Shown here: in pieces, positions 290 to 38,812 of the stretch
How the letters are laid out: each line of letters opens with the position of its first letter
How positions within the stretch are numbered: the first letter of the stretch is position 1
NCBI GenBank assembly: GCA_902772915.1
Contig: CACYCE010000013.1
Span: forward strand, 1-43,973
From: an uncultured Erysipelotrichaceae bacterium
GTDB taxonomy: Bacteria > Bacillota_I > Bacilli_A > RFN20 > CAG-288
Reading direction: 5' to 3'
DNA length: 43,973 nucleotides
Notes under the pieces: model-generated
The model's database searches: none
Told to the model about the DNA's origin: nothing
The model's input: the letters and a program-made list of their open reading frames with translations, nothing else
Program-made: the position numbers and the translations under genes

Positions 290-562
290 CTAGAGAGGTA
301 ATGATTCCAATAGATGGAAGAAAGCCATATAGGCGGATTCTTCATCAGCTCCCTCAATAACAATATCGAAACTTCCACCTTTAGGAATGGAAAGAGTGAA
401 AACGTTCATTATTGATTTTAAGTCCGCTTGTTGAGAAGGATCATCTTTATCAACGACCATAGTACATCTAGCGATGTGCTTATTCGCTTCAGCAACTAAT
501 TCCGCGGCAAGTCTGGAAGTCAAGCCATTCTCGTTAGTAACTTTAATACTTAAAGTTTTCAT
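290..562 (-). CDS. HPr-family protein lacking His15 (Crh-like regulatory HPr)
   Basis: A 90-residue protein with the HPr fold pattern throughout. In ordinary HPr the PTS site reads GIHARPA. Here it reads GLTSRLA, so the phosphorylated histidine is Thr15, Arg17 is kept and Pro18 is Leu. The second regulatory site is intact: LKSIMNV with Ser50 aligns with Ser46 of HPr (four extra residues, DPSQ, lie before it). Seryl phosphorylation by HPr kinase is therefore possible but phosphotransfer to EIIA is not. Bacillus Crh has the same logic with Gln15. The gene stands alone with a promoter, an SD of AGGAGG type at 572-580 and a terminator. hprK lies at 12211-13161. The family call is certain; the regulatory role is inferred from the residues. 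Confidence 0.9.
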   Translation of the reverse strand: MKTLSIKVTNENGLTSRLAAELVAEANKHIARCTMVVDKDDPSQQADLKSIMNVFTLSIPKGGSFDIVIEGADEESAYMAFFHLLESLPL

Positions 563-12210: not shown

Positions 12211-13161
12211 ATGGCAGGATGTACAATTGGTGAACTAGCGGAAAACTTCGGTCTTGTCACTGTCGTTTCTTCCCCTAAATCAATAAGTAAAAAAATCTCA
12301 GTAATCGAAGTTGATAGACCTGGTTTGGAATTAGCTGGCTTCTACGAATACCACCAGAAGACTAGATTGGTTTTAATTGGTAAGAAAGAATTGGCTTTTA
12401 TTTCTCACATGCAATCTTTTTCAGCTTACCAAGCTATTTTACAAATCTGCGCTCCTGAAACTCCTGGTATTGTTATCTGTCATGGTTTACCTTGCCCTGA
12501 AGAAATTAAAAGAGCTGCAGAGAAGAAAGATTGCGCTGTCTTCCAAACTTTAGAAGATACTTCCACTTTTGAAGCGGACGTCTTAAATTTCTTGTCGGAG
12601 AAATTAGCTCCTAAAACTTCTATTCACGCAAACTTGATGGAAATCTTCGGCTGTGGAACTTTGATGATTGGTGATTCTGGTATAGGTAAATCTGAAGTAT
12701 CTTTGGATCTACTTAAAAGAGGGCACGTTTTAGTTTCTGATGACAAAGTTGAAATTTTAAATGTCAGAAATAAATTAGAAGGTTCTTCTCCCGCTATAAC
12801 TTTCGGAATGATGGAAGTTAGAGGTATTGGTATTATCGATGTTTCTAGAATGTTTGGCATCAATGCCGTTAAGAGAAAATCTCAAATCACTTACTGCGTA
12901 GATATGCGTCTATTTAACCCTAAAGAAGTGGTTGATAGATTAGGTAGCACTTCTAAGACTATCGAATATCTAGGAGTTAAAGTTCCTTATGTTAAATTGC
13001 CTGTTAGCTCTGGTAGAAGTATGGCGGAATTAGTAGAGATTGCCATTACTAATTTCAAACTTAAAGATTCCGGTTTTGATTCAGCTCGTGAATTTGAAAG
13101 AAGAATGGATGTTGAAAGAGAAAAGGCCAGAATTGCTTTAGAAGCGAAGAATAAAATTTAG
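12211..13161 (+). CDS. hprK: HPr kinase/phosphorylase
   Basis: A 316-residue cytosolic enzyme that phosphorylates and dephosphorylates the regulatory serine of HPr-type proteins according to metabolic state. The N-terminal domain covers about residues 1-130. The catalytic part has His139, Walker A GDSGIGKS at 154-161, the Asp pair at 177-178 and the family signature EVRGIGIIDV at 202-211. All key residues are present, so it should be active. The natural substrate visible in this window is the HPr-like protein at 290-562, which keeps the serine but not the histidine. It is followed after 17 nt by lgt. Confidence 0.97.
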   Translation: MAGCTIGELAENFGLVTVVSSPKSISKKISVIEVDRPGLELAGFYEYHQKTRLVLIGKKELAFISHMQSFSAYQAILQICAPETPGIVICHGLPCPEEIKRAAEKKDCAVFQTLEDTSTFEADVLNFLSEKLAPKTSIHANLMEIFGCGTLMIGDSGIGKSEVSLDLLKRGHVLVSDDKVEILNVRNKLEGSSPAITFGMMEVRGIGIIDVSRMFGINAVKRKSQITYCVDMRLFNPKEVVDRLGSTSKTIEYLGVKVPYVKLPVSSGRSMAELVEIAITNFKLKDSGFDSAREFERRMDVEREKARIALEAKNKI

Positions 13162-24705: not shown

Positions 24706-24938
24706 ATTTCCGCTGTCCTTGTTGCTTCATGAGAGATATCGATATGGATATGTTCTACGATGAAGAAAAGAAGGAATATTACTGCCTTAGATGCGGATAT
24801 AAAGGCGATGAAAAAGACGTCTTGAGATTGAATGAACAAGCTAAATATAGATATAAGAATCTTAAAAAGAGAGTCGTCTCTTTCAATGAAGATAACGAAC
24901 CTATAACTTTTGAAGACTACAAAGGAGATAAAAGATGA
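24678..24938 (+). CDS. Small zinc-ribbon protein
   Basis: An 86-residue protein with two CxxC pairs, C13/C16 (FRCPCC) and C36/C39 (YCLRCGY), typical of a single zinc ribbon, followed by a basic and then acidic tail. Strong GGGGAGG lies just upstream, inside the end of the preceding gene. It overlaps its neighbours at both ends (28 nt upstream, ATGA overlap of 4 nt with the GH53 gene), so it is firmly embedded in the operon. Its stop is TGA, the only one I find among the genes here. Function unknown; it could be a regulator or an accessory protein of the sugar enzymes. Confidence 0.82.
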   Translation: MAQSTKGKLNFRCPCCFMRDIDMDMFYDEEKKEYYCLRCGYKGDEKDVLRLNEQAKYRYKNLKKRVVSFNEDNEPITFEDYKGDKR

Positions 24939-26041
24939 TACTCGGCATCGATACTTCGACCTATTTTGAGGAAGAAGAAGTCAAGGCTAAATATTATAGA
25001 GACGGGAAAGAAGTTGATCCTCTTAAAGAATTTAGAAACAACAATGTAAGTCACATGAGAATAAGAATTTGGAATGATCCTTATTCTGAAGATAAGAAGC
25101 CTTATCTAGGAGGAACTTCCGATTTAGATAAAGCCATTAGATTATCTAAGATAGCTTCATCTTACGGCTATAAATTGCTCTGGGATTTCCATTATTCAGA
25201 TTTCTGGGCTGATCCAGGTAAACAAATTTGCCCTAAAGCGTGGAAAGATTTAACTTTCGAACAAGTTTGCAAAGAAGTTTATAAATTTACTAAAGAGTGC
25301 TTAATTAAGGCCAAAGAAAACGATTTAGATATCAGCTTGGTTCAAATCGGTAATGAAATCACTAATGGTATGATTTGGCCTTTTGGTAAATTAGATGAAT
25401 CTACTACTCCTAGAGGTAATTATGAACATCTAAGTTTGTTACTTAAAGAAGGTATTAAAGCCGCTAGAGAAGTCTTTCCTAAAATTAAGATTATCATTCA
25501 TTTAGAGAGAAGTTACGATCAAGTAGTCTACGCTGAATATTTCGATCATTTGAAGCAATACAACGTCGATTACGATATTATCGGTATGTCATATTACCCT
25601 TATTGGCACGGAACTTTCAAACAATTCTTCGCTAATGTGAATATGTGCCAACAGAGATTTAATAAAGATGTCATGGTCATGGAATTAGGATATAGCTTCA
25701 CTTTAGAAGACTATATTTTAAATAACAACGGCCAAGCTCAATTGGTAGTTAATGGTAATAGTAAGGATTTAATATCTAATTTGCCTTATCCTATAACTAA
25801 ACAAGGGCAAGCTCAATTTATAGAAGAATTTCTAAAATTAGCTAAAGAAAACAATGTTAAAGGTGTCTTCTATTGGGAACCTATGTGGATTCCTTGCGAG
25901 GACAAGATTTGCTGGGCTTCTAAAGAAGGTCAAGCTTACATTCACGAAGAAGGTAAATCTACTAGAAACGAATGGTCTAATCAATGCCTATTCGATTACA
26001 AAGGTGAAATGAATCCTTCCTTCGATAAATTCAAAATTTAA
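24935..26041 (+). CDS. GH53 endo-beta-1,4-galactanase without signal peptide
   Basis: A 368-residue TIM-barrel glycosidase that cleaves beta-1,4-galactan chains. The protein starts directly at the first barrel strand (ILGIDTSTY), so it is cytosolic. The acid/base Glu141 is in VQIGNEITNG and the nucleophile Glu250 in [23 protein letters not shown] and [10 protein letters not shown] are further GH53 hallmarks. GH53 enzymes are usually secreted, so this one probably trims imported galacto-oligosaccharides. It overlaps the zinc-ribbon gene by 4 nt. A secreted relative is encoded at 26549-28654. Confidence 0.93.
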   Translation: MILGIDTSTYFEEEEVKAKYYRDGKEVDPLKEFRNNNVSHMRIRIWNDPYSEDKKPYLGGTSDLDKAIRLSKIASSYGYKLLWDFHYSDFWADPGKQICPKAWKDLTFEQVCKEVYKFTKECLIKAKENDLDISLVQIGNEITNGMIWPFGKLDESTTPRGNYEHLSLLLKEGIKAAREVFPKIKIIIHLERSYDQVVYAEYFDHLKQYNVDYDIIGMSYYPYWHGTFKQFFANVNMCQQRFNKDVMVMELGYSFTLEDYILNNNGQAQLVVNGNSKDLISNLPYPITKQGQAQFIEEFLKLAKENNVKGVFYWEPMWIPCEDKICWASKEGQAYIHEEGKSTRNEWSNQCLFDYKGEMNPSFDKFKI

Positions 26042-26047
26042 TAAAAT

Positions 26048-26533
26048 ATGGAAAAAATGAATAGACGAGAGAAAACATATATCAAATCGTTCTTCGCGAT
26101 GATAATAATTCTATTGATATTAGGAATAGTTTCTTTCGTCTATTCCATTGTTGAAATTTTCAACACTCAAACCCTAAACAACAATATCTTCGAACTTATT
26201 TACATGGGTCTACATTTAATCATAGTAGTCTTTATACTCATGATGACTAAATCCAGTTTAAATAAGGAAGAGTCGGTGGTTTTTAAACCTCTGATGATGC
26301 AAAAGGGAGATAGATTTCCCAATAGAAAAGCTCAAGTAATAGCTTTGATATTAGGAATAGGAGGATTATTTTGCGCTATTTATTTCTTCTTAGTGCAAAT
26401 AGGTGTGTCTTTGCCTAAACCTAACTTTCCTATTACACTGATATTAGATTTAGTCAATTCACCTTTAACTGTTGCAATATTAGGATTCTACAGTTTTTTT
26501 TACCCGTATGTACTTTTAAAAAAGGATAACTAA
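26048..26533 (+). CDS. Four-TM membrane protein of unknown function
   Basis: A 161-residue protein with hydrophobic segments at about 13-34, 48-65, 94-115 and 125-153, and a basic loop between the second and third (GDRFPNRKAQ). No family is recognised. It begins 6 nt after the cytosolic GH53 gene and ends 15 nt before the GH53 lipoprotein gene, so it belongs to the operon. A strong ribosome binding site is not visible before it, which suggests translational coupling. Confidence 0.7.
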   Translation: MEKMNRREKTYIKSFFAMIIILLILGIVSFVYSIVEIFNTQTLNNNIFELIYMGLHLIIVVFILMMTKSSLNKEESVVFKPLMMQKGDRFPNRKAQVIALILGIGGLFCAIYFFLVQIGVSLPKPNFPITLILDLVNSPLTVAILGFYSFFYPYVLLKKDN

Positions 26534-28654
<2,121 letters not shown>

Positions 28655-28659
28655 ACAAT

Positions 28660-30357
28660 ATGAAAAGAGGATATAAATTATTAATAACCTTAGTCAGTTT
28701 CGGATTCCTGGCTTCTTGTTCTTCTCCTACTTCTTCAGCTGCAGCTTCTAGTGTTGTTTCAAGCGCTGCTATTTCTTCTGAGGCTTCTTCCTTAATTTCA
28801 TCTTTGTCAATTTCTTCTCAGGAACCTGATTACGATGAATATACAGGTTACAAGATGGCTGATGACCCTAGTGAAAATTATGGAATCGATACTACTATCT
28901 CCAATGAAAATAGTACGGTAAATTACGAAATCTTCGTCAGATCTTTTTACGATACTGATGGAAATGGCATAGGTGATTTAAATGGGGTTAAAGCTAAATT
29001 GCCTTATTTAAAATCTATGGGATTTAAGACTTTGTGGTTGATGCCTATTTTCCCTTCACCTACTTATCACGGCTACGATGTAACTGATTATTATAGAATC
29101 AACTCTGCTTTTGGTAGCATGGATGATTTCGAATCTCTAGTTAACGAAGCGAAAAACTACAATATCGACATCATGTTAGATATGGTTTTAAATCACTGTT
29201 CTACAAAATCAGATTACTTTAAGCAATCTAAAGAGGATTACTTGAAAGAGAAACAAGGCTTAGTAGTAGAAAACAGCAAAGCTGATTGGATCAATTGGAA
29301 AGATGATTCTGCTACAAATTACGAAGCTAGCTTTGCTGGAGGTATGGCTGATTTCAATTTAGATAGTGAAGGTGTCCGTGCAGAATTTGAAAATATCTGT
29401 AAATTTTGGATTGAAAAAGGTGTTAAAGGGTTCAGATTAGACGCGGTTTTATATTATTACAATAACACTTCTAAAAATGTCGCTTTCTTAAACTGGTTAG
29501 AAGATACTTGTCACAAATACGATGAAAACTTTTACATGGTTGGTGAATGTTGGACTTCTGATGCTGTATTAAATAGTTACGCCAATTCTAAATGCGATTC
29601 TTTCTTTAGATTTGGAAATTCTCTTAACGGTGAATACAATCCTATCAATTTACTTAAAGAGAGAACTAAATCTAGCTTGTACGCTGAATATATCGAAAAG
29701 AACGAGAAAATTGCTAAGAGCAATAGATCTACTTTCTATTCATCTTATTTCTTATCTAATCACGATGAGGATCGTCCTTCTAAGAGCTTAGATGGTGATA
29801 AATATAAAGCGGCTCTTTCGTTAAATTATTTAATGCCTGGTACTCCTTATATGTATTATGGTGAAGAAATCGCTATGAAAGGTCAAAGGAAGACTGCTCC
29901 TGATGATTACTCTGATGTTAAAAGAAGATTGCCCATGATTTGGTCTTCTTCATCAAAAACAGGTCAATGCAATTTCCCTGAATCGGGAAGGGAAGATTTA
30001 GATACTACTGTTCAAGTTACTCAAGGGGTGGAAGATTTAGAAAAAGATCCTTTCTCTTATTTAAATCACGCTAAGAAAGTAATCAACATTAGAAATAAAT
30101 ACAGCAAACTATTTAAAGAAGGTGTATTTACTTCTATGGTTTCTTCTTTAAAAACCGAAGAAAGACCTTTGATGGCTTACAAGATTGCCAATGGTGAAGA
30201 CTATCTAATAGTAGTTCATAATTTCTCTTCTAAGAATGCGGAAGTTACTTCACCTGGAAGTGAAATAGTAGAATCTATAAACACCAATCATAAGATTCCT
30301 TCTTTAAAGGATGGGAAACTTAGAATAGGTGCGTGTTCTACTGTCATAATGCGATAA
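28660..30357 (+). CDS. Surface alpha-amylase-family (GH13) lipoprotein
   Basis: A 565-residue lipoprotein with lipobox LASC (Cys20) and a Ser/Ala-rich linker to about residue 55. The GH13 barrel shows YEIFVRSFYDTDGNGIGDL at about 89-107, nucleophile Asp261 in GFRLDAVL, acid/base Glu296 in MVGECW and Asp369 in SNHDEDRP. It most likely cuts starch or maltodextrin; exact specificity cannot be told. An upstream TTG at 28630 is in frame but would put ten odd residues before a perfect signal peptide, so ATG 28660 is chosen. The start lies 5 nt after the GH53 lipoprotein stop. Confidence 0.93.
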   Translation: MKRGYKLLITLVSFGFLASCSSPTSSAAASSVVSSAAISSEASSLISSLSISSQEPDYDEYTGYKMADDPSENYGIDTTISNENSTVNYEIFVRSFYDTDGNGIGDLNGVKAKLPYLKSMGFKTLWLMPIFPSPTYHGYDVTDYYRINSAFGSMDDFESLVNEAKNYNIDIMLDMVLNHCSTKSDYFKQSKEDYLKEKQGLVVENSKADWINWKDDSATNYEASFAGGMADFNLDSEGVRAEFENICKFWIEKGVKGFRLDAVLYYYNNTSKNVAFLNWLEDTCHKYDENFYMVGECWTSDAVLNSYANSKCDSFFRFGNSLNGEYNPINLLKERTKSSLYAEYIEKNEKIAKSNRSTFYSSYFLSNHDEDRPSKSLDGDKYKAALSLNYLMPGTPYMYYGEEIAMKGQRKTAPDDYSDVKRRLPMIWSSSSKTGQCNFPESGREDLDTTVQVTQGVEDLEKDPFSYLNHAKKVINIRNKYSKLFKEGVFTSMVSSLKTEERPLMAYKIANGEDYLIVVHNFSSKNAEVTSPGSEIVESINTNHKIPSLKDGKLRIGACSTVIMR

Positions 30358-30389
30358 TTTAAAGTAATTTTATAGGAGGTTAATTTTAT

Positions 30390-33143
30390 ATGAAAAGAAA
30401 ATTTTGTGCACTTTTAATCGCTGTTGCTTCTTTGTCTTTAGTTGGATGTAACAATCAAAATACTAGCGTAGTTAGTTCTGCTAATCAAAGTTCTCAAGTT
30501 TCTTCTGTTGCTTCTTCAGCTGCTTCATCAGCTGTTGTTTCTTCAGTTGCAGCTTCTTCAGCTAGTTCCTCACTTGTCTCTTCTGAAAATCATTCAGTAG
30601 ATATTGATGTTGGTCAAGCTCCTACTTTCCAAGAAGATGCTTTATATATCCATTATTGGAGAGCAGATGGAACGTATAAAAATTGGGATCTTTGGCTTTG
30701 GGATAATAGCAAATCCGGAGCAGCTTACGCATTTAACGGCAAAGATGATTGGGGAGTCATTATGGCTATACCTCTATCTACCTTTGCTAAATTAGATAGT
30801 GATAATCAATTAGGTTTGATTGTCAGAAAAGGTGGAGATTCCTGGGCTGAAAAAGATTTGAACGGCTCAGATACTTACGTTGATTTATCTAAATTCAAAA
30901 AAGATGAAAATGGTATCTATCACCTCTATTTAATCTCCGGAGAAGCTTCGGTTTATTACAATAAGGAAAGAGGAGTAATAGGAGCAATTAGAATGGCGAC
31001 TTTCGTCTCTGAAACTTCCATTTCTTTAAAGGCTACTATAGGTATTACTAAATACGTCTTGAAGAAAGATGGTGTAGATTTACTTTCTAAAGATATTAAT
31101 AAGACTAAATCTACTTCTATAACTTTACCTGCTCCATTAGATTACATGGCTGGTTATACTGTCGAAGCGACTTTAGAAAATGGAGATACTTTAACTTCTT
31201 CTGTTACTAAGACTTTGTTATTCAATTCAAAGTCTTTCAATGACACTTACAACTACGATGGAGATGACTTAGGTGTCACTTACACTAGTTCTAAATCTAC
31301 TTTCAAAGTCTGGTCACCTCTATCCAGCAAGATTGTTTTAAGAATTTATGAATCAGGTACTCCTAAATCTGTAGATGCTTCTAAAGGTGATGATACTTTC
31401 GCTTCTTACGATATGACTAAAGGTGAAAAGGGAGTCTTTTCTGCTGAAGTACCTGGAGATTTAGATGGTAAATATTACACCTATGTAGTAACTAATGGTG
31501 AATATAAAGAAAAAGAAACTATCGATCCTTACGCTAAAGCTTGTGGTGTCAACGGTATTAGAGGTATGATTGTTGACTTCGATAAAACCAATCCTGAAAA
31601 TTGGGATTTAACCGCTCCTTCACCTTACGATAGAAAAGAATTGACCGTCTATGAAACTCACGTTGCTGATGTTACTTCTTCAAAGACCTGGCAAGGTATA
31701 GAAGGGAATAGAAAACTCTTTTCAGGTATGCATGAAAAAGGCACTACTTACACTGAAGGTGGAGTTACTGTTAAGACCGGGTTTGACCATATTAAAGAAT
31801 TAGGTGTCAACGCTGTTCAAATCTTACCTTTCTTTGATCAAGCTAACGATGAGGTTAATCCTACTTTCAACTGGGGTTACAATCCTTCTAATTACAATTG
31901 TTTAGAAGGTAGTTATTCTTCTAATCCTTATGATGGTTATGTTCGTATTAGAGAAATGAAATCTCTAATCAAAGATTTCACTGACAATGGTATGAATATC
32001 ATCATGGATGTTGTTTATAATCACACTAACGGTGCTATAGGTTCTAATTTTGATATTATCATGCCTGGCTATTATTACAGATATACTGGAACTCTAGAAT
32101 TATCTAATGGTAGTGGATGTGGCAACGAAACTGCTTCTGATCACTATATGTTTAGAAAGTTCATGATTGATTCCGCTAAATTCTGGGCTAAAGAATATAA
32201 GTTGGGTGGTTTCAGATTTGATTTGATGGGTTTACATGATATTGAAACTATGAACCAATTAACTGCTGCTGTTAAAGAAATCAATCCTAATATCGTGATT
32301 TATGGTGAACCTTGGGCAGGAGGAACTTCTACTTTAGGTGGCTCCTATGCTACTGGCGTTCCTGCTAACCAGCAAAATGGTGGTAAATATGTCGGATATG
32401 GTGCTTTCAACGATAAGATTAGAGACAGCTTAATTAAAGGTGGCTTATCAGCTGCTACTGAACTAGGCTGGATCACTACTAAGGATCCTATTGCTGGAAG
32501 TGATCAAGGTGCTTTAATTAAAGGTGTTAGAGGTGTGGCTAATGCTACTCCTATTGATGATCCTGATAAAGTAGTAACCTATGTAACCTGCCACGATAAT
32601 TACACTTTATATGATCGTGCTATCGCTACTAAAGAATACACTTCTGAAGATGATGCTATCTTAGCAAAGATGAATGTCTTAGCTAACTCTGTGGTCTTTA
32701 CATCTCAAGGTACTTCCTTCATGTTAGCAGGTGAAGAATTCTTAAGAACCAAGCAAGGTAATTCTAACTCTTACAACGCTTCTTATGAAGTTAATGAATT
32801 AGATTATTCTTTGAAGATTAAGCATCAAGATATGTTTAAGTCATATCAAAAGATGATCGCTTTAAAACAGACTTTAGATGGCTTACATCTAGATAAAGAA
32901 GGAATTAAAAACTTCAATCCTGTTTTATCTAGCGACACCTCTACCTTGTCTTATTCTTTGAAGGATAATAGTGGAAATAGGGAATTCAAAGTCTTCCATG
33001 TTAACGGCTTAGGAACTAATCAAAAAGTCGATTTAAGCGGATATAATTTGTATTATTCCACTATTGATGGTGAGTCTAAGATTCTCTCTGATGCGACTGA
33101 ATTGAAGCCTTATGAGACGTTAGTTGCCTATAAAAGTTTGTAA
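30390..33143 (+). CDS. Surface type I pullulanase lipoprotein with CBM41
   Basis: A 917-residue lipoprotein with lipobox LVGC (Cys20) and a long Ser/Ala/Val linker to about residue 68. Next is a CBM41 alpha-glucan-binding domain (about 84-190: YIHYWRADGTYKNWDLWLW), an Ig-like segment (about 200-280), a CBM48-like region (about 290-400) and the GH13 barrel. The type I pullulanase motif NWGYNPSNY is at 494-502, nucleophile Asp611 in GFRFDLMG, acid/base Glu640 in YGEPWAGG and Asp736 in TCHDNY. It cleaves alpha-1,6 branches of glucans. Last gene of the operon, followed by a terminator. Confidence 0.95.
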   Translation: MKRKFCALLIAVASLSLVGCNNQNTSVVSSANQSSQVSSVASSAASSAVVSSVAASSASSSLVSSENHSVDIDVGQAPTFQEDALYIHYWRADGTYKNWDLWLWDNSKSGAAYAFNGKDDWGVIMAIPLSTFAKLDSDNQLGLIVRKGGDSWAEKDLNGSDTYVDLSKFKKDENGIYHLYLISGEASVYYNKERGVIGAIRMATFVSETSISLKATIGITKYVLKKDGVDLLSKDINKTKSTSITLPAPLDYMAGYTVEATLENGDTLTSSVTKTLLFNSKSFNDTYNYDGDDLGVTYTSSKSTFKVWSPLSSKIVLRIYESGTPKSVDASKGDDTFASYDMTKGEKGVFSAEVPGDLDGKYYTYVVTNGEYKEKETIDPYAKACGVNGIRGMIVDFDKTNPENWDLTAPSPYDRKELTVYETHVADVTSSKTWQGIEGNRKLFSGMHEKGTTYTEGGVTVKTGFDHIKELGVNAVQILPFFDQANDEVNPTFNWGYNPSNYNCLEGSYSSNPYDGYVRIREMKSLIKDFTDNGMNIIMDVVYNHTNGAIGSNFDIIMPGYYYRYTGTLELSNGSGCGNETASDHYMFRKFMIDSAKFWAKEYKLGGFRFDLMGLHDIETMNQLTAAVKEINPNIVIYGEPWAGGTSTLGGSYATGVPANQQNGGKYVGYGAFNDKIRDSLIKGGLSAATELGWITTKDPIAGSDQGALIKGVRGVANATPIDDPDKVVTYVTCHDNYTLYDRAIATKEYTSEDDAILAKMNVLANSVVFTSQGTSFMLAGEEFLRTKQGNSNSYNASYEVNELDYSLKIKHQDMFKSYQKMIALKQTLDGLHLDKEGIKNFNPVLSSDTSTLSYSLKDNSGNREFKVFHVNGLGTNQKVDLSGYNLYYSTIDGESKILSDATELKPYETLVAYKSL

Positions 33144-33205
33144 AAGCTAAAAATTTTTGTACGCAAAGCATAAATGTAAACGCTCTCATAGAAAATATAT
33201 ATTAT

Positions 33206-33368: not shown

Positions 33369-34994
33369 ATGAAAATCAAAAAATTCCTTACTACTTCACT
33401 TTCAGCTACCGCTTTAATGCTCGGTTTAGCTGCTTGTAACGGTGGAGGGGGCTCTAGTGCTGCCACTTCTTCTGCTGCTACTTCTTCTGCTGCTTCAATT
33501 GCTTCTAGTGCGGCAAGCGCTACTTCTACCAACCCTTTAGCTGGTAAATACACTATCACTGTTTGGGTTTCTGAAGCTGATGGTGTCACTGATTTGACCG
33601 AAGATCAAATCGAAGCTTTTGAACAAGCTAACCCTGGAATCGATATCGAAGCTACTATCGAAGGTGTTTCCGAATCTAACGCCGCAGGTCAAATGTTATT
33701 AGATATCGATGCTGGTGCGGATATTTATTGTTTCGCTCAAGACCAATTTGCGAGATTAGTTCAAGGTCAGGCTTTATCTCAATTGGGTCAAGGTGCTGCT
33801 TCTTATGTAGTTACTAACAACTCTGCTTCTTCCGCCAACGCCGTTAAATCTGGAGATGCTTACTACGCTTATCCTTTAACTGCGGATAATGGCTACTTCA
33901 TGTACTATGATAAGAGTGTTATTCAAGAATCTAGTTTAGGTGATTTAGATAAAATTATTGCTGATGTCAAAGCTGCAAACAAGAAGATTTCTTGGAATTT
34001 AGGTACTGATGGCGGCTGGTACATCGCCGGTTGGTTCTTCGGTAATGGTTGTGTCTCTAACTGGACTACCGATGCCGATGGAAACTTCACTTCCGTTTAC
34101 GATACATTTAATTCAGACGAAGGTTTAGTCGCTGCTAAAGCTATGAAAGCTTTCTTCGATTCTGGTGTTTATAATCACTCCGCTTCTGCGGCTGATTTTG
34201 ATGCTGCCATTCCTTCTGCTGCTGTTGTCTCTGGTACTTGGGATTACAAGACCGCTAAAGATATCTTAGGTAATAACTTAGGTGCTGTTGAATTACCTAA
34301 AGTCAAAGTTGGTGATCATTCTTATCACCTCGGTTCTTTCTCCGGTATGAAATTAATGGGTGTCAAACCTCAAACTGATGCTAAGAGAAACGCTGTCTTA
34401 CATCAATTAGCTCAATACTTAACTGGTGAAACTTGCTCTGTTCAAAGAGCTACTGAATTCGGTTGGGGTCCTTCTAACTTAGCCGCTCAAAAATCTTCTG
34501 TCGTTACAAGCAACCCTGCTTTATCTGCTTTAGCTGCTCAAAGCGCTTATGCGGTTCCTCAAGGTCAAATTTCCGGTGGATGGTGGGATTTAGCTGTTGC
34601 TTTAGGTACTTCCATCCAAGCTGCTACTGATGAAGATGGTCTTAAAGCTGCTTTAAAGACTTACGAAGATGCTACTAAAGAATTAGCTAAACCTTTCGTC
34701 TTAGAGAAGGTCTCTTTAATCGGTTCTATCGGTGGAGAAACCTGGAATAATGATCACGATTTAGTTAAACAAAACGATGGTTCATATGTTTTAGAAAGCA
34801 TCGCTTTAACTGCAGGTGAAGAATTCAAAGCCAGAGCTAACCACGGTTGGGATAAATCTTTAGGTTTTGATAATTTAACTTCAAGCGAAAACTTTGAAAG
34901 TGCTAACGGAAATATTAAAGTTGTAAAATCTGGCACTTATAGAGTTGTTGTTGATAAAGATTTCACTAAGATCACTATTTCTGAACTTCAATAA
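33369..34994 (+). CDS. Sugar-binding lipoprotein of the ABC importer with C-terminal starch-binding-like module
   Basis: A 541-residue extracytoplasmic solute-binding protein of the MalE class. The lipobox is LAAC (Cys23), followed by a Gly/Ser/Ala linker to about residue 53. The periplasmic-binding-type fold runs to about residue 435 (start ITVWVSEADGVTDL; later SGTWDYKTAK and GGWWDLAVALG). From about 447 to the end is an extra beta module with the pattern IGGETWNND...GEEFKARANHGWDKSLGF...GTYRVVVD, which resembles SusE/SusF-type starch-binding domains. Binding proteins normally end before this. Heads the operon with permeases and ATPase. Confidence 0.92.
   Translation: MKIKKFLTTSLSATALMLGLAACNGGGGSSAATSSAATSSAASIASSAASATSTNPLAGKYTITVWVSEADGVTDLTEDQIEAFEQANPGIDIEATIEGVSESNAAGQMLLDIDAGADIYCFAQDQFARLVQGQALSQLGQGAASYVVTNNSASSANAVKSGDAYYAYPLTADNGYFMYYDKSVIQESSLGDLDKIIADVKAANKKISWNLGTDGGWYIAGWFFGNGCVSNWTTDADGNFTSVYDTFNSDEGLVAAKAMKAFFDSGVYNHSASAADFDAAIPSAAVVSGTWDYKTAKDILGNNLGAVELPKVKVGDHSYHLGSFSGMKLMGVKPQTDAKRNAVLHQLAQYLTGETCSVQRATEFGWGPSNLAAQKSSVVTSNPALSALAAQSAYAVPQGQISGGWWDLAVALGTSIQAATDEDGLKAALKTYEDATKELAKPFVLEKVSLIGSIGGETWNNDHDLVKQNDGSYVLESIALTAGEEFKARANHGWDKSLGFDNLTSSENFESANGNIKVVKSGTYRVVVDKDFTKITISELQ
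33465..33494 (+). repeat. Tandem repeat in the lipoprotein linker
   Basis: Two exact head-to-tail copies of the 15-bp unit ACTTCTTCTGCTGCT, which encode TSSAA twice in the linker after the lipid anchor. Similar but imperfect Ser/Ala codon repeats occur in the linkers of the three enzyme lipoproteins upstream. Confidence 0.85.
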
Positions 34995-35013
34995 TTAAAT
35001 CAATTTGTTAATG

Positions 35014-35050
35014 TGGGTTGGGGAAAACTTTACCCCAACCCATTCTTTTT
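35014..35050 (+). terminator. Intra-operon terminator between binding-protein and permease genes
   Basis: TGGGTTGGGG (35014-35023) pairs perfectly with CCCCAACCCA (35033-35042), followed by TTCTTTTT. Position between a highly produced binding protein and its permeases suggests partial termination or message stabilisation to set protein ratios. Confidence 0.88.
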
Positions 35051-35064
35051 AGAGAGGAGATAAT

Positions 35065-36630
35065 ATGGGACAATCAAATAACGCCACTCTCGAATCAAAA
35101 GAAGAAAGATTGCAAAAGGATTTAGCTTATCTCAAACTAACTAAATTTAAAAAGATATTATTTAAAACCAAAAAATTCTTCCGTGGAATTTTACCTTGGT
35201 TACGTAATCTCTTATTTGCTATCCTTAATTTCTTTAAGAAAGTTGGTTTAGGAATTGCACATGAATGTGTCAATATCGTACAGACATTTATCCATGGTGA
35301 TTGGAAGACTAAAGTGTCTTACGTCATTATGGGTTTTGGCAATCTAGCCCGTGGACAATGGGGTAGAGGCGTTTTATTTTTAGCTCTTGAAGTCATCTTC
35401 ATCATCTACATGATTTTCTGGGGTGGGAATTGGCTGTCACAGATGGGTACTTTAGGTACGCAAGGCCCTGAAAAGATTTACGATCCTATCTATGATACCT
35501 ATACCACTATCTATCACGATAATTCCTTCAAGATTCTTTTATATTCAGTTTTGACTTTATTCTTTATTGTCGCTGTAGTTTACACTTGGAGAGTCAATAT
35601 CAAACAAAATCAAATCGCTGAAGCTATTATTAAGAGTGGTAAACCCCTTAGATCAACTAAAGGTGACTTACATTCTTTAATTGACGATCAATTCCATAAG
35701 ACTTTATTAGCTTTACCTACTATTGGTATTCTGATATTCACAGTCTTACCTATTATCTTCATGATTCTTATCGCTTTTACTAATTACTCTGGTAAGAATA
35801 ATGGTTATAGTAACAATCTATTTACTTGGGTTGGTTGGGATAACTTCAATACGTTACTCAACTGGAACAGCGGTAACAAAGCTTACTCTGCTGCCTTTGG
35901 TGAAATCTTAGCGTGGACGTTAATTTGGGCATTCTTCGCTACGTTCTCCAACTACTTCCTAGGTATGTTAGTCGCTATTATGATTAACAAGAAGGGAATT
36001 AAGCTTAAGAAAGTTTGGAGAACAATATTAGTTCTAACTATCGCTATTCCACAATTTATTTCCTTGCTATATGTTTCTAAGATGTTTGCTGATAATGGCA
36101 TTATCAACGGATGGATTGTTAGATGTGGAGGTGAAGCTATAGGCTGGTTCTCATCAGATCCTAACTTAGCTAGAACTATGGTAATCGTGATTAACATTTG
36201 GATTGGTATTCCTTACTTAATGTTGATTGCCACTGGTATCTTAATGAACATTCCTGAAGACTTATATGAATCTGCTAAGATTGATGGCGCTAATGTCTGG
36301 CAACAATACACAAAGATTACCTTGCCTTACATGTTATTCATTACTGGTCCTTACTTGTTGACAAGTTTCATTGGTAATATGAATAACTTCAACGTTATCT
36401 TCTTACTGACAGGTGGTGCCCCTGTTAATACTGCTGCTTCTTCAGCCGCAGGTAACGCCGGCTACACCGACTTGTTAGTAACTTGGCTGTTTAAGATTAC
36501 TACTGGTACTGATGCTTTGTATTACATGGCTTCTGTCATCGGTATCTTAGTCTTCGTTGTCGTCGCTTTTATTTCTATAATTGTCTATAACTTCATGCCG
36601 TCTAATAAGAATGAGGAGGATTATCAATAA
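35065..36630 (+). CDS. Sugar ABC-transporter permease (MalF type)
   Basis: A 521-residue membrane subunit. The EAA-type loop EDLYESAKIDGANVWQQYTK at about 401-420 contacts the ATPase. The N-terminal third is unusual: about 80 basic, amphipathic residues, then extra membrane segments at about 102-120 and 155-175 before the core permease (about 215-515). This matches the long MalF/GanP group more than the short MsmF type. The gene overlaps the next permease by one base. The substrate is inferred from the neighbouring starch and galactan enzymes. Confidence 0.93.
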   Translation: MGQSNNATLESKEERLQKDLAYLKLTKFKKILFKTKKFFRGILPWLRNLLFAILNFFKKVGLGIAHECVNIVQTFIHGDWKTKVSYVIMGFGNLARGQWGRGVLFLALEVIFIIYMIFWGGNWLSQMGTLGTQGPEKIYDPIYDTYTTIYHDNSFKILLYSVLTLFFIVAVVYTWRVNIKQNQIAEAIIKSGKPLRSTKGDLHSLIDDQFHKTLLALPTIGILIFTVLPIIFMILIAFTNYSGKNNGYSNNLFTWVGWDNFNTLLNWNSGNKAYSAAFGEILAWTLIWAFFATFSNYFLGMLVAIMINKKGIKLKKVWRTILVLTIAIPQFISLLYVSKMFADNGIINGWIVRCGGEAIGWFSSDPNLARTMVIVINIWIGIPYLMLIATGILMNIPEDLYESAKIDGANVWQQYTKITLPYMLFITGPYLLTSFIGNMNNFNVIFLLTGGAPVNTAASSAAGNAGYTDLLVTWLFKITTGTDALYYMASVIGILVFVVVAFISIIVYNFMPSNKNEEDYQ

Positions 36631-37619
36631 TGTCTGAAAAAGATTTAAAAAATAATGAACCTCAAGTCGTAGAGGAATTTGAAGAAGAGAAGCTTGAACA
36701 ACCTGAATCAGATTTACGACAAGAAGTAGCTTTCGATGACACCGCTGTTGTCTCTAGAGAAAAAAGACACATGGGTATGAAAGCTAAGACTCGTGCTGCT
36801 AATATTACTATTTACGTAATCTTAGTCATCATGAGTGCTGTGTGGTTAGTTCCTTTCATCTTCATCGTCTTACAGTCGTTTAGATGTGAATCAACTTATT
36901 TAACTGGTTATGTTATCCCTAAACAATGGGGTTTTGATAATTACGCTAGATTATTCACAGAGACCAAGTTCCCTAGATGGTTCTTAAATACTTTCATTAT
37001 CTCTGTGGTCGCCGCTGTAATTCAATTAATCATGGTCTTGTGTATGTCTTACACATTATCTAGATTGAGATTTAAAGGCCGTAAAGCGTTGATGAACGCC
37101 ATGTTAATCTTGGGTATGTTCCCTGGTATGTTAACTATGATTGTTCTATATAGAATCTTAGCTGATGCGGGTATGACTCAAGGGAATTCTATAGCTGGTT
37201 TGATTCTAGTTTATGTTGCTTCTTCAGGTATGGGATATTACGTATCTAAAGGTTTCTTTGATACCATCCCTAAGTCATTAGATGAAGCAGCTAGAGTCGA
37301 CGGTGCAAATAGGGCACAAGTCTTATACAAGATTATCTTACCTTTGTCTAAACCTATTGTTATTTACACCCTCTTAACTGCCTTTATGGGTCCTTGGGGT
37401 GATTATGTATTTGCGAGTTACGTAGCCTTTAACGTTTCTGATGGTTACAACGTTGCTGTTGGTTTACAATGGTTGATTTCCACTCCGAGCAATATTGCTG
37501 CTAACTACACAATATTCTGCGCCGGTGGTGTTATTGTCGCTATTCCCATCACCTTATTGTTCATGTTCTTGCAAAAGTATTATGTCGAAGGTGTTACGGG
37601 TGGAGCTGTTAAAGGATAG
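36630..37619 (+). CDS. Sugar ABC-transporter permease (MalG type)
   Basis: A 329-residue membrane subunit with six core membrane segments and the EAA loop KSLDEAARVDGANRAQVLYK at about 195-214. The first 45 residues are an acidic extension not usual for MalG. The ATG uses the last A of the MalF-type stop codon, and GAGGAGG lies within the end of that gene, so translation is coupled. Confidence 0.94.
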   Translation: MSEKDLKNNEPQVVEEFEEEKLEQPESDLRQEVAFDDTAVVSREKRHMGMKAKTRAANITIYVILVIMSAVWLVPFIFIVLQSFRCESTYLTGYVIPKQWGFDNYARLFTETKFPRWFLNTFIISVVAAVIQLIMVLCMSYTLSRLRFKGRKALMNAMLILGMFPGMLTMIVLYRILADAGMTQGNSIAGLILVYVASSGMGYYVSKGFFDTIPKSLDEAARVDGANRAQVLYKIILPLSKPIVIYTLLTAFMGPWGDYVFASYVAFNVSDGYNVAVGLQWLISTPSNIAANYTIFCAGGVIVAIPITLLFMFLQKYYVEGVTGGAVKG

Positions 37620-37630
37620 GAGAAATATTT

Positions 37631-38812
37631 ATGGCTAATGTTAAATTAACTAATGTTAAAAAGATATATCAAGGTAATGTCGTAGCGGTTCACGATTTCA
37701 ATTTAGATATTGCTGATAAGGAATTTATCGTCTTCGTCGGTCCTTCTGGCTGCGGCAAATCTACTACTTTAAGAATGATTGCAGGTCTAGAAGAAATCTC
37801 CGAAGGTACAATTGAATTCGACGGAGAAGTAGTCAATGACTTACAACCTAAAGATCGTAAGATCTCCATGGTCTTCCAAAACTACGCTTTGTATCCTAAC
37901 TACACCGTATTTGAAAACATGGCTTTCCCTTTACGTCTAATTAGGCCTAAGATGTCTCAAGATGAAATTTATGAAAGAGTCACTAAAGCTGCCGAAATCT
38001 TAGGTATCACCGAATATTTAACTAGAAAGCCTAGGGCGTTGTCTGGTGGTCAAAGACAGAGAGTCGCTATTGGCAGAGCAATGGTTAAAGATTGTAAGGT
38101 CTTCTTGATGGATGAACCTCTATCTAACTTGGATGCGAAATTACGTAATCAAATGAGAGCGGAAATCATCCTCTTAAGAAAGAAAATTAACACTACTTTC
38201 GTCTACGTTACTCACGATCAGACTGAAGCTATGACTTTAGGTGATAGAATCGTCGTTATGAAAGATGGTTATATTATGCAAGTCGGCACTCCTACTGAAG
38301 TTTTTGATAGACCTAGAAATCTATTCGTCGCTGAATTTATCGGTGCTCCTAAGATGAACACTTTCAAGACTAACTTAGTCAAGAAAGATGGAAAATATTT
38401 CGTTACTCCTTTTGGAGCAGAAATTCCTGTAACTGGTCAAAAAGCTGATTTGTTAGCAGAAAATGGTATTGATTCTCAAGAAATTATATTGGGTGTCAGA
38501 CCTGAGCATGTCGTCTTAGCAGACAAACCTTCTAAAGAAACTATCAGAGTTATTTTGCAAGTTAACGAAATGATGGGTAATGAATTGCATCTACACCTTT
38601 TAACTGATGATAACACTCCTTTAATTGTCAGAGTACCTACAATGAATTTAACTGATGAATTTAGAAATGAATTAGTTATGGGCAAAGAACTTTACATTAC
38701 TTTTGAAAGTAAAGTTATGCACTTCTTCGATACCGTGACTGAAAAATCACTTCTTTATATTGATAAAGAAGAGCCTGTTCAAGAAGATGAAGAAGAAATA
38801 AATGCTGAGTAA
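37631..38812 (+). CDS. Sugar ABC-transporter ATPase (MalK/MsmK/UgpC family)
   Basis: A 393-residue ATPase that powers the importer. Walker A GPSGCGKST at 37-45, signature LSGGQ at 137-141, Walker B ending DE at 161-162 and switch His195. The C-terminal half (about 240-375) is the regulatory TOBE/OB region of MalK-type proteins, ending in an acidic tail. In Gram-positive bacteria such ATPases may serve several sugar importers; here the gene is linked directly to its permeases. AGGAG lies just upstream. Confidence 0.95.
   Translation: MANVKLTNVKKIYQGNVVAVHDFNLDIADKEFIVFVGPSGCGKSTTLRMIAGLEEISEGTIEFDGEVVNDLQPKDRKISMVFQNYALYPNYTVFENMAFPLRLIRPKMSQDEIYERVTKAAEILGITEYLTRKPRALSGGQRQRVAIGRAMVKDCKVFLMDEPLSNLDAKLRNQMRAEIILLRKKINTTFVYVTHDQTEAMTLGDRIVVMKDGYIMQVGTPTEVFDRPRNLFVAEFIGAPKMNTFKTNLVKKDGKYFVTPFGAEIPVTGQKADLLAENGIDSQEIILGVRPEHVVLADKPSKETIRVILQVNEMMGNELHLHLLTDDNTPLIVRVPTMNLTDEFRNELVMGKELYITFESKVMHFFDTVTEKSLLYIDKEEPVQEDEEEINAE

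Follow-up and report, generated by a model that had tools for sequence, protein, structure and literature searches.

The HPr-like gene and its genomic context

The window, i.e. the whole stretch of 43,973 nucleotides analysed here, is contig C13 of a 1.27-Mb MAG with 93% completeness. It encodes an HPr-like protein, an HPr kinase/phosphorylase (HprK), and a maltodextrin-type ABC importer, and the same genome encodes a CcpA-like regulator on another contig (Table 1).

Table 1. Features of the window and of its genome that bear on the role of the HPr-like protein.
Feature	Position	Strand	Remarks
HPr-like protein, 90 aa	290..562	-	ATG start; Thr15, Leu18, Ser50 (= Ser46); sole HPr found in the genome
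hprK, HPr(Ser) kinase/phosphorylase	12211..13161	+	TIGR00679, 318.6 bits vs. equivalog cut-off of 240
cre-like operator ATGTAAACGCTCTCAT	33174..33189	+	strict consensus match; between the pullulanase-type gene and the ABC importer
Maltodextrin-type ABC importer, proposed target	33369..38812	+	Pfam: SBP_bac_8, two BPD_transp_1 permeases, MalK-like ATPase
CcpA-like LacI-family regulator	L027:658-1671	-	best family ccpA; outside the window

The small protein is recognized as an HPr by both Pfam PF00381 (61.1 bits vs. a cut-off of 23) and NCBIfam TIGR01003 (50.6 bits vs. 47.9). Its AlphaFold2 model (pLDDT 93.4) has HPrs as Foldseek neighbours in the PDB (1kkl, 1sph, 2fep; TM 0.79–0.89), with a TM of 0.89 to the HPr of 1kkl, which is bound there to HPr kinase. 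The phosphocarrier histidine of the GLHARP motif is absent, and residues 15–18 are Thr, Ser, Arg, and Leu (motif GLTSRL). In an alignment with 32 solved HPr-type chains, Ser50 (in DLKSIM) occupies the position of Ser46. The initial annotation had read the replacement of His15 by Thr and of Pro18 by Leu, as well as the equivalence of Ser50 and Ser46, from this sequence alone, and the alignments bear out these assignments.

The same residues recur in the family, in which 23 genomes yielded 22 HPrs (41–86% identity to the window protein), all lacking His15 and retaining the regulatory serine. Thr occupies position 15 in 21 of them (the window protein and 20 relatives), with Val in the remaining one, so a sequencing or binning error does not account for the loss of the histidine. 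Arg17, A20-E21-L22-V23, and D47-L48-K49-S50-I51 are invariant, and the GLTSR motif that replaces the histidine motif is itself conserved. The insertion of four residues before the serine, flagged as unusual in the initial annotation, is real but limited to the genus of the window, where one species has three residues, and in a second family the regulatory serine lies at position 46 or 47. It is therefore best seen as loop variation at the genus level and is probably not functionally telling.

The hprK gene was described as intact, and an alignment of its product with 30 relatives and 1ko7, 1knx, and 1jb1 agrees with this, as the catalytic motifs are kept (P-loop GDSGIGKSE, DD, and EVRGIGIID). 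This HprK also carries the sequence PVSSGRS, which corresponds to PVRPGRN in the solved enzyme of S. xylosus and to PISPGRK in the HprK of M. pneumoniae; most HprKs of the window's group read PVSxxRS.

Absence of PTS components

Whether a second HPr with His15, EI, or EII genes, or CcpA occur elsewhere in the genome had been left to a genome-wide search. HPr profiles retrieved no second HPr from the window's genome, and no PTS_EIIC domain, by which the EII families were judged, was found. The single match to the EI model is a pyruvate phosphate dikinase; matches of about 900 aa to this model were considered as hidden EI and rejected on the same identification. Scanning 956 kb of this genome for motifs likewise revealed neither a GLHARP-type HPr nor an EI active-site motif, and the only LacI-family gene is the one encoding the CcpA-like protein. 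Without His15 and without an EI to charge it, the window's HPr would be unable to carry phosphate. Most such uncultured gut and environmental lineages have been noted to have lost the PTS and to depend on ABC importers, with HPr unmentioned (PMC7301438), and no description of an HPr of this kind emerged from our search of open-access papers.

Distribution of HPr variants

In a sample of 222 genomes with at least 80% completeness from the order, probably RFN20 of GTDB, 47 carry HPr; most other genomes of the order have none. HPrs without His15 but with Ser46 were found in the family of the window (n = 22), in a second family (n = 15), and in three further cases. The corresponding 35 genomes of the sample (families f1, f2, f6, and f7; 80–98% complete) lack both EI (0/35) and any EIIC over the cut-off, all have Ser46 (35/35), and 31 encode HprK, whereas genomes with a His15 HPr mostly encode EI (10/12), have no HprK (0/12), and mostly show Arg or Lys in place of Ser46 (9/12). 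The p values of Fisher's exact test are about 1e-8 (EI) and 3e-8 (HprK); they ignore shared ancestry, owing to which the genome counts are not independent. Families f1, f2, and f6 have the HPr gene within about 7–27 kb of hprK and close to uvrA, lgt, trxB, and whiA.

Phylogenetically, the HPrs without His15 form one group (SH-aLRT 99) separate from a ptsI-linked group (100), in a tree of a short protein with many unresolved forks and with Bacillus Crh left out. Genomes of family f4 (L069-L073, L075-L078) present the reverse of the window protein, with a ptsI-adjacent HPr that has His15 and Arg/Lys46, and with no HprK found. Judged by these residues, the f4-type HPr is a carrier not open to serine phosphorylation.

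Elsewhere in the class Bacilli, the HPrs inspected have His15 throughout, except in one genus of family f27 with Gln15. In all three of its genomes (L262/G313, L263/G325, and L264/G307), a GLQARP-containing protein is the sole HPr match, EI was not found, and HprK is kept. Since these Gln15 HPrs are placed among His15 relatives in the tree, His15 and EI appear to have been lost jointly, with HprK retained, at least twice.

Two further observations concern EI. In a less complete relative, G021 (65%), whose HPr has Thr15, part of a true EI (L023:3-1088) is encoded on a contig of 3.1 kb that was possibly binned from another organism. In addition, ORFs of about 225–245 aa in three genomes (G396:C30:64482-65123, G319:C50:39469-40131, and G355:C114:10469-10954) match only the N-terminal part of the EI model (about positions 5–228); no full-length EI was found in G396 and G355, yet their HPr keeps His15.

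The CcpA-like candidate partner

The candidate partner of the HPr scores 228.3 bits against TIGR01481 and thus does not reach the equivalog cut-off of 442.35, which is passed by no genome of the order, and the solved structures closest to it are CcpAs. An alignment with the CcpA of 3oqm shows that it has both R303 and K307. From CcpA-HPr structures we take K307 to be a second contact of Ser46-P, and D69 and D296 to face the side of His15 and Arg17. R303, which is R304 in B. subtilis numbering, contacts Ser46-P (PMC4591507). Both R303 and K307 are kept in all 34 genomes examined from the lineages without His15 (f1, f2, f6, and G225), plus two genomes of f7, and the pair occurs in none of the 34 genomes examined from f3 and f4, families in which HprK was not found. 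D69 is mostly A, S, or G in the genomes without His15 and D296 is mostly E or K, changes that may have weakened or rebuilt the contact between HPr and CcpA.

Operator-like sites and candidate targets

The initial annotation proposed that sugar uptake relies on ABC importers and named the one in the window, which is preceded by a predicted cre-like site where 0.10 strict matches would be expected by chance in the window. About 180 bp separate this site from the start codon, with a terminator-like hairpin downstream of it. Because of this distance and the hairpin, it is not in a classical position for repression, and its role in control of the importer is uncertain. The homologous importer operon of G013, the only one found by synteny, has no strict cre before it. 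Directly upstream of the importer, positions 24935-33143 contain two GH53 galactanase genes, an alpha-amylase gene, and the pullulanase-type gene, and constitute a cluster for secreted starch and galactan degradation.

Over 956 kb of the genome, the strict operator TGNAANCGNTNNCA has five matches, one inside the small gene rpmC and four intergenic, compared to 0.26 intergenic matches expected from scrambled patterns (maximum 2 in 200; the script count of 5 includes the rpmC match). The intergenic sites precede the window's ABC importer, an opp-type importer, a cluster running from a glycerol-3-phosphate-oxidase-like gene to glpK (glpO-glpK-type), and a gene for an EF-G-like GTPase. The last of these (L301:2766-2781; TTGTAATCGCTTACAA) is a near-perfect palindrome about 20 bp before the start of the GTPase gene. 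Strict sites are also found before the HPr gene itself in G226 (L203:10034) and before gapA-pgk-tpi in G022 (L274:14062). When up to two mismatches to a loose consensus were allowed, matches in the window were no more frequent than expected by chance, and so only strict patterns were used. GlpK was also considered as a former target of P-His-HPr that has lost its regulation; its loop SSIFGFVNLFDTDIPISG lacks a His, but so does that of E. coli GlpK, its closest solved relative, and we regard this candidate as weak.

Proposed role of the HPr-like protein

Based on its sequence, the gene content, the co-occurrence pattern with its Gln15 parallel, the matching residues of the CcpA-like protein, and the operator-like sites, we consider it likely that the window's HPr is the sole and dedicated corepressor linking HprK to CcpA in a bacterium without a PTS, with a function like that of Crh. 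HprK would phosphorylate Ser50 at high levels of glycolytic intermediates and ATP, and the phosphorylated HPr would dock on the CcpA-like regulator via the Arg/Lys pair at 303 and 307. The complex would bind cre sites and control ABC importers and glycerol catabolism, presumably in such a direction that the genes are released when energy is low and HprK strips the phosphate. HPr thus appears to survive in this PTS-less group only as a serine-phosphorylated switch of carbon control.

The serine-phosphorylated protein could instead act mainly away from CcpA, on a MalK-type importer by inducer exclusion or on another partner through the GLTSR surface. The conservation of GLTSR and the dependence of the window's genome on ABC importers fit such a role, and in lactobacilli Ser-P HPr is known to exert inducer exclusion on non-PTS permeases (cited in PMC3526391). 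However, the perfect co-occurrence of HprK lineages with R303 and K307 in CcpA points to the regulator as the main partner while being compatible with extra targets. In the same direction, 956 kb of the genome contained no motif resembling MgsA, which is known as a target of Crh. We thus regard action chiefly off CcpA as unlikely.

It is less probable still that the HPr is a decaying relic of a lost PTS in which Ser46 and HprK persist by inertia. The genomes are small, their PTS is gone, and HprK escaped detection in four of the 35, as decay might predict, but a relic gene would hardly show invariant residues around Ser50 and Arg17 among proteins as divergent as those of the family, nor a conserved new motif at the former histidine, nor the parallel retention of HprK and the Ser-P contacts of CcpA; we rejected it on the residue conservation. 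The least credible explanation is that a normal PTS exists and that the assembly, being incomplete, lacks its EI and second HPr. Although the MAG is 93% and not fully complete, and although G021 has a partial EI, neither EI nor EIIC reached its cut-off in any of the 35 genomes from four families, and G021 itself has a Thr15 HPr and an EI contig that may be foreign.

For the order as a whole, we tentatively suggest that evolution has split HPr into two single-purpose proteins: a regulator, which lacks His15, has Ser46, and occurs with HprK and CcpA but without a PTS, and a carrier, which has His15 and Arg/Lys46 and occurs with EI and EII but without HprK. In the regulator branch, the interface with CcpA may also have been remodelled where the histidine was lost, GLTSR and the changed D69 and D296 of CcpA forming a new docking surface; this broader scenario is possible rather than probable. 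HPr couples sugar transport and catabolite control via antagonistic phosphorylation of His15 and Ser46. These two jobs appear uncoupled here, with related lineages having gone opposite ways, and apparently for a second time in the Gln15 genus. Such lineages make it testable whether control by HprK and CcpA needs the PTS as a sensor or responds to the glycolytic state alone, and which CcpA residues serve to read His15. They also offer a model of regulation, open to testing, for those uncultured gut Bacilli that are known to be PTS-less.

Comparison with known systems

Crh of Bacillus, Geobacillus, and Parageobacillus is a CcpA corepressor phosphorylated by HprK and without a role in transport (PMC9631020, PMC3526391). 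Like the window's HPr, it has an HPr fold, lacks His15, and keeps Ser46, and the sequence of the window's protein is compatible with Crh-type phosphorylation by HprK and binding to CcpA. Unlike Crh, which has Gln15 and, as a paralogue, backs up a true HPr in the presence of a complete PTS, the window's protein has Thr15, is the sole HPr in a genome without EI, and belongs to a lineage-specific clade. The Crh-like signalling role assigned to it in the initial annotation is thus supported as a function, by the sole HPr, the lack of EI, and the CcpA contacts, but not as an identity with Crh.

The genome also contains all parts of the control by HPr-Ser46-P and CcpA in Bacillota, i.e. HprK, Ser46, R303 and K307 in CcpA, and cre-type operators. 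As there is no His15 branch, the antagonism between His15-P and Ser46-P that ties HPr to PTS activity is gone in the window's lineage. Rare isolated cases of ptsH without ptsI are reported for Bartonella and Ureaplasma urealyticum (PMC2405797), a likeness at the level of an HPr gene in EI-less genomes. PTS proteins are also kept for regulation without PTS permeases in the regulatory-only PTS of proteobacteria, but in contrast to the window's genome, which has neither EI nor His15, organisms such as Brucella keep EI and a phosphorylatable HPr/NPr (PMC2937029).
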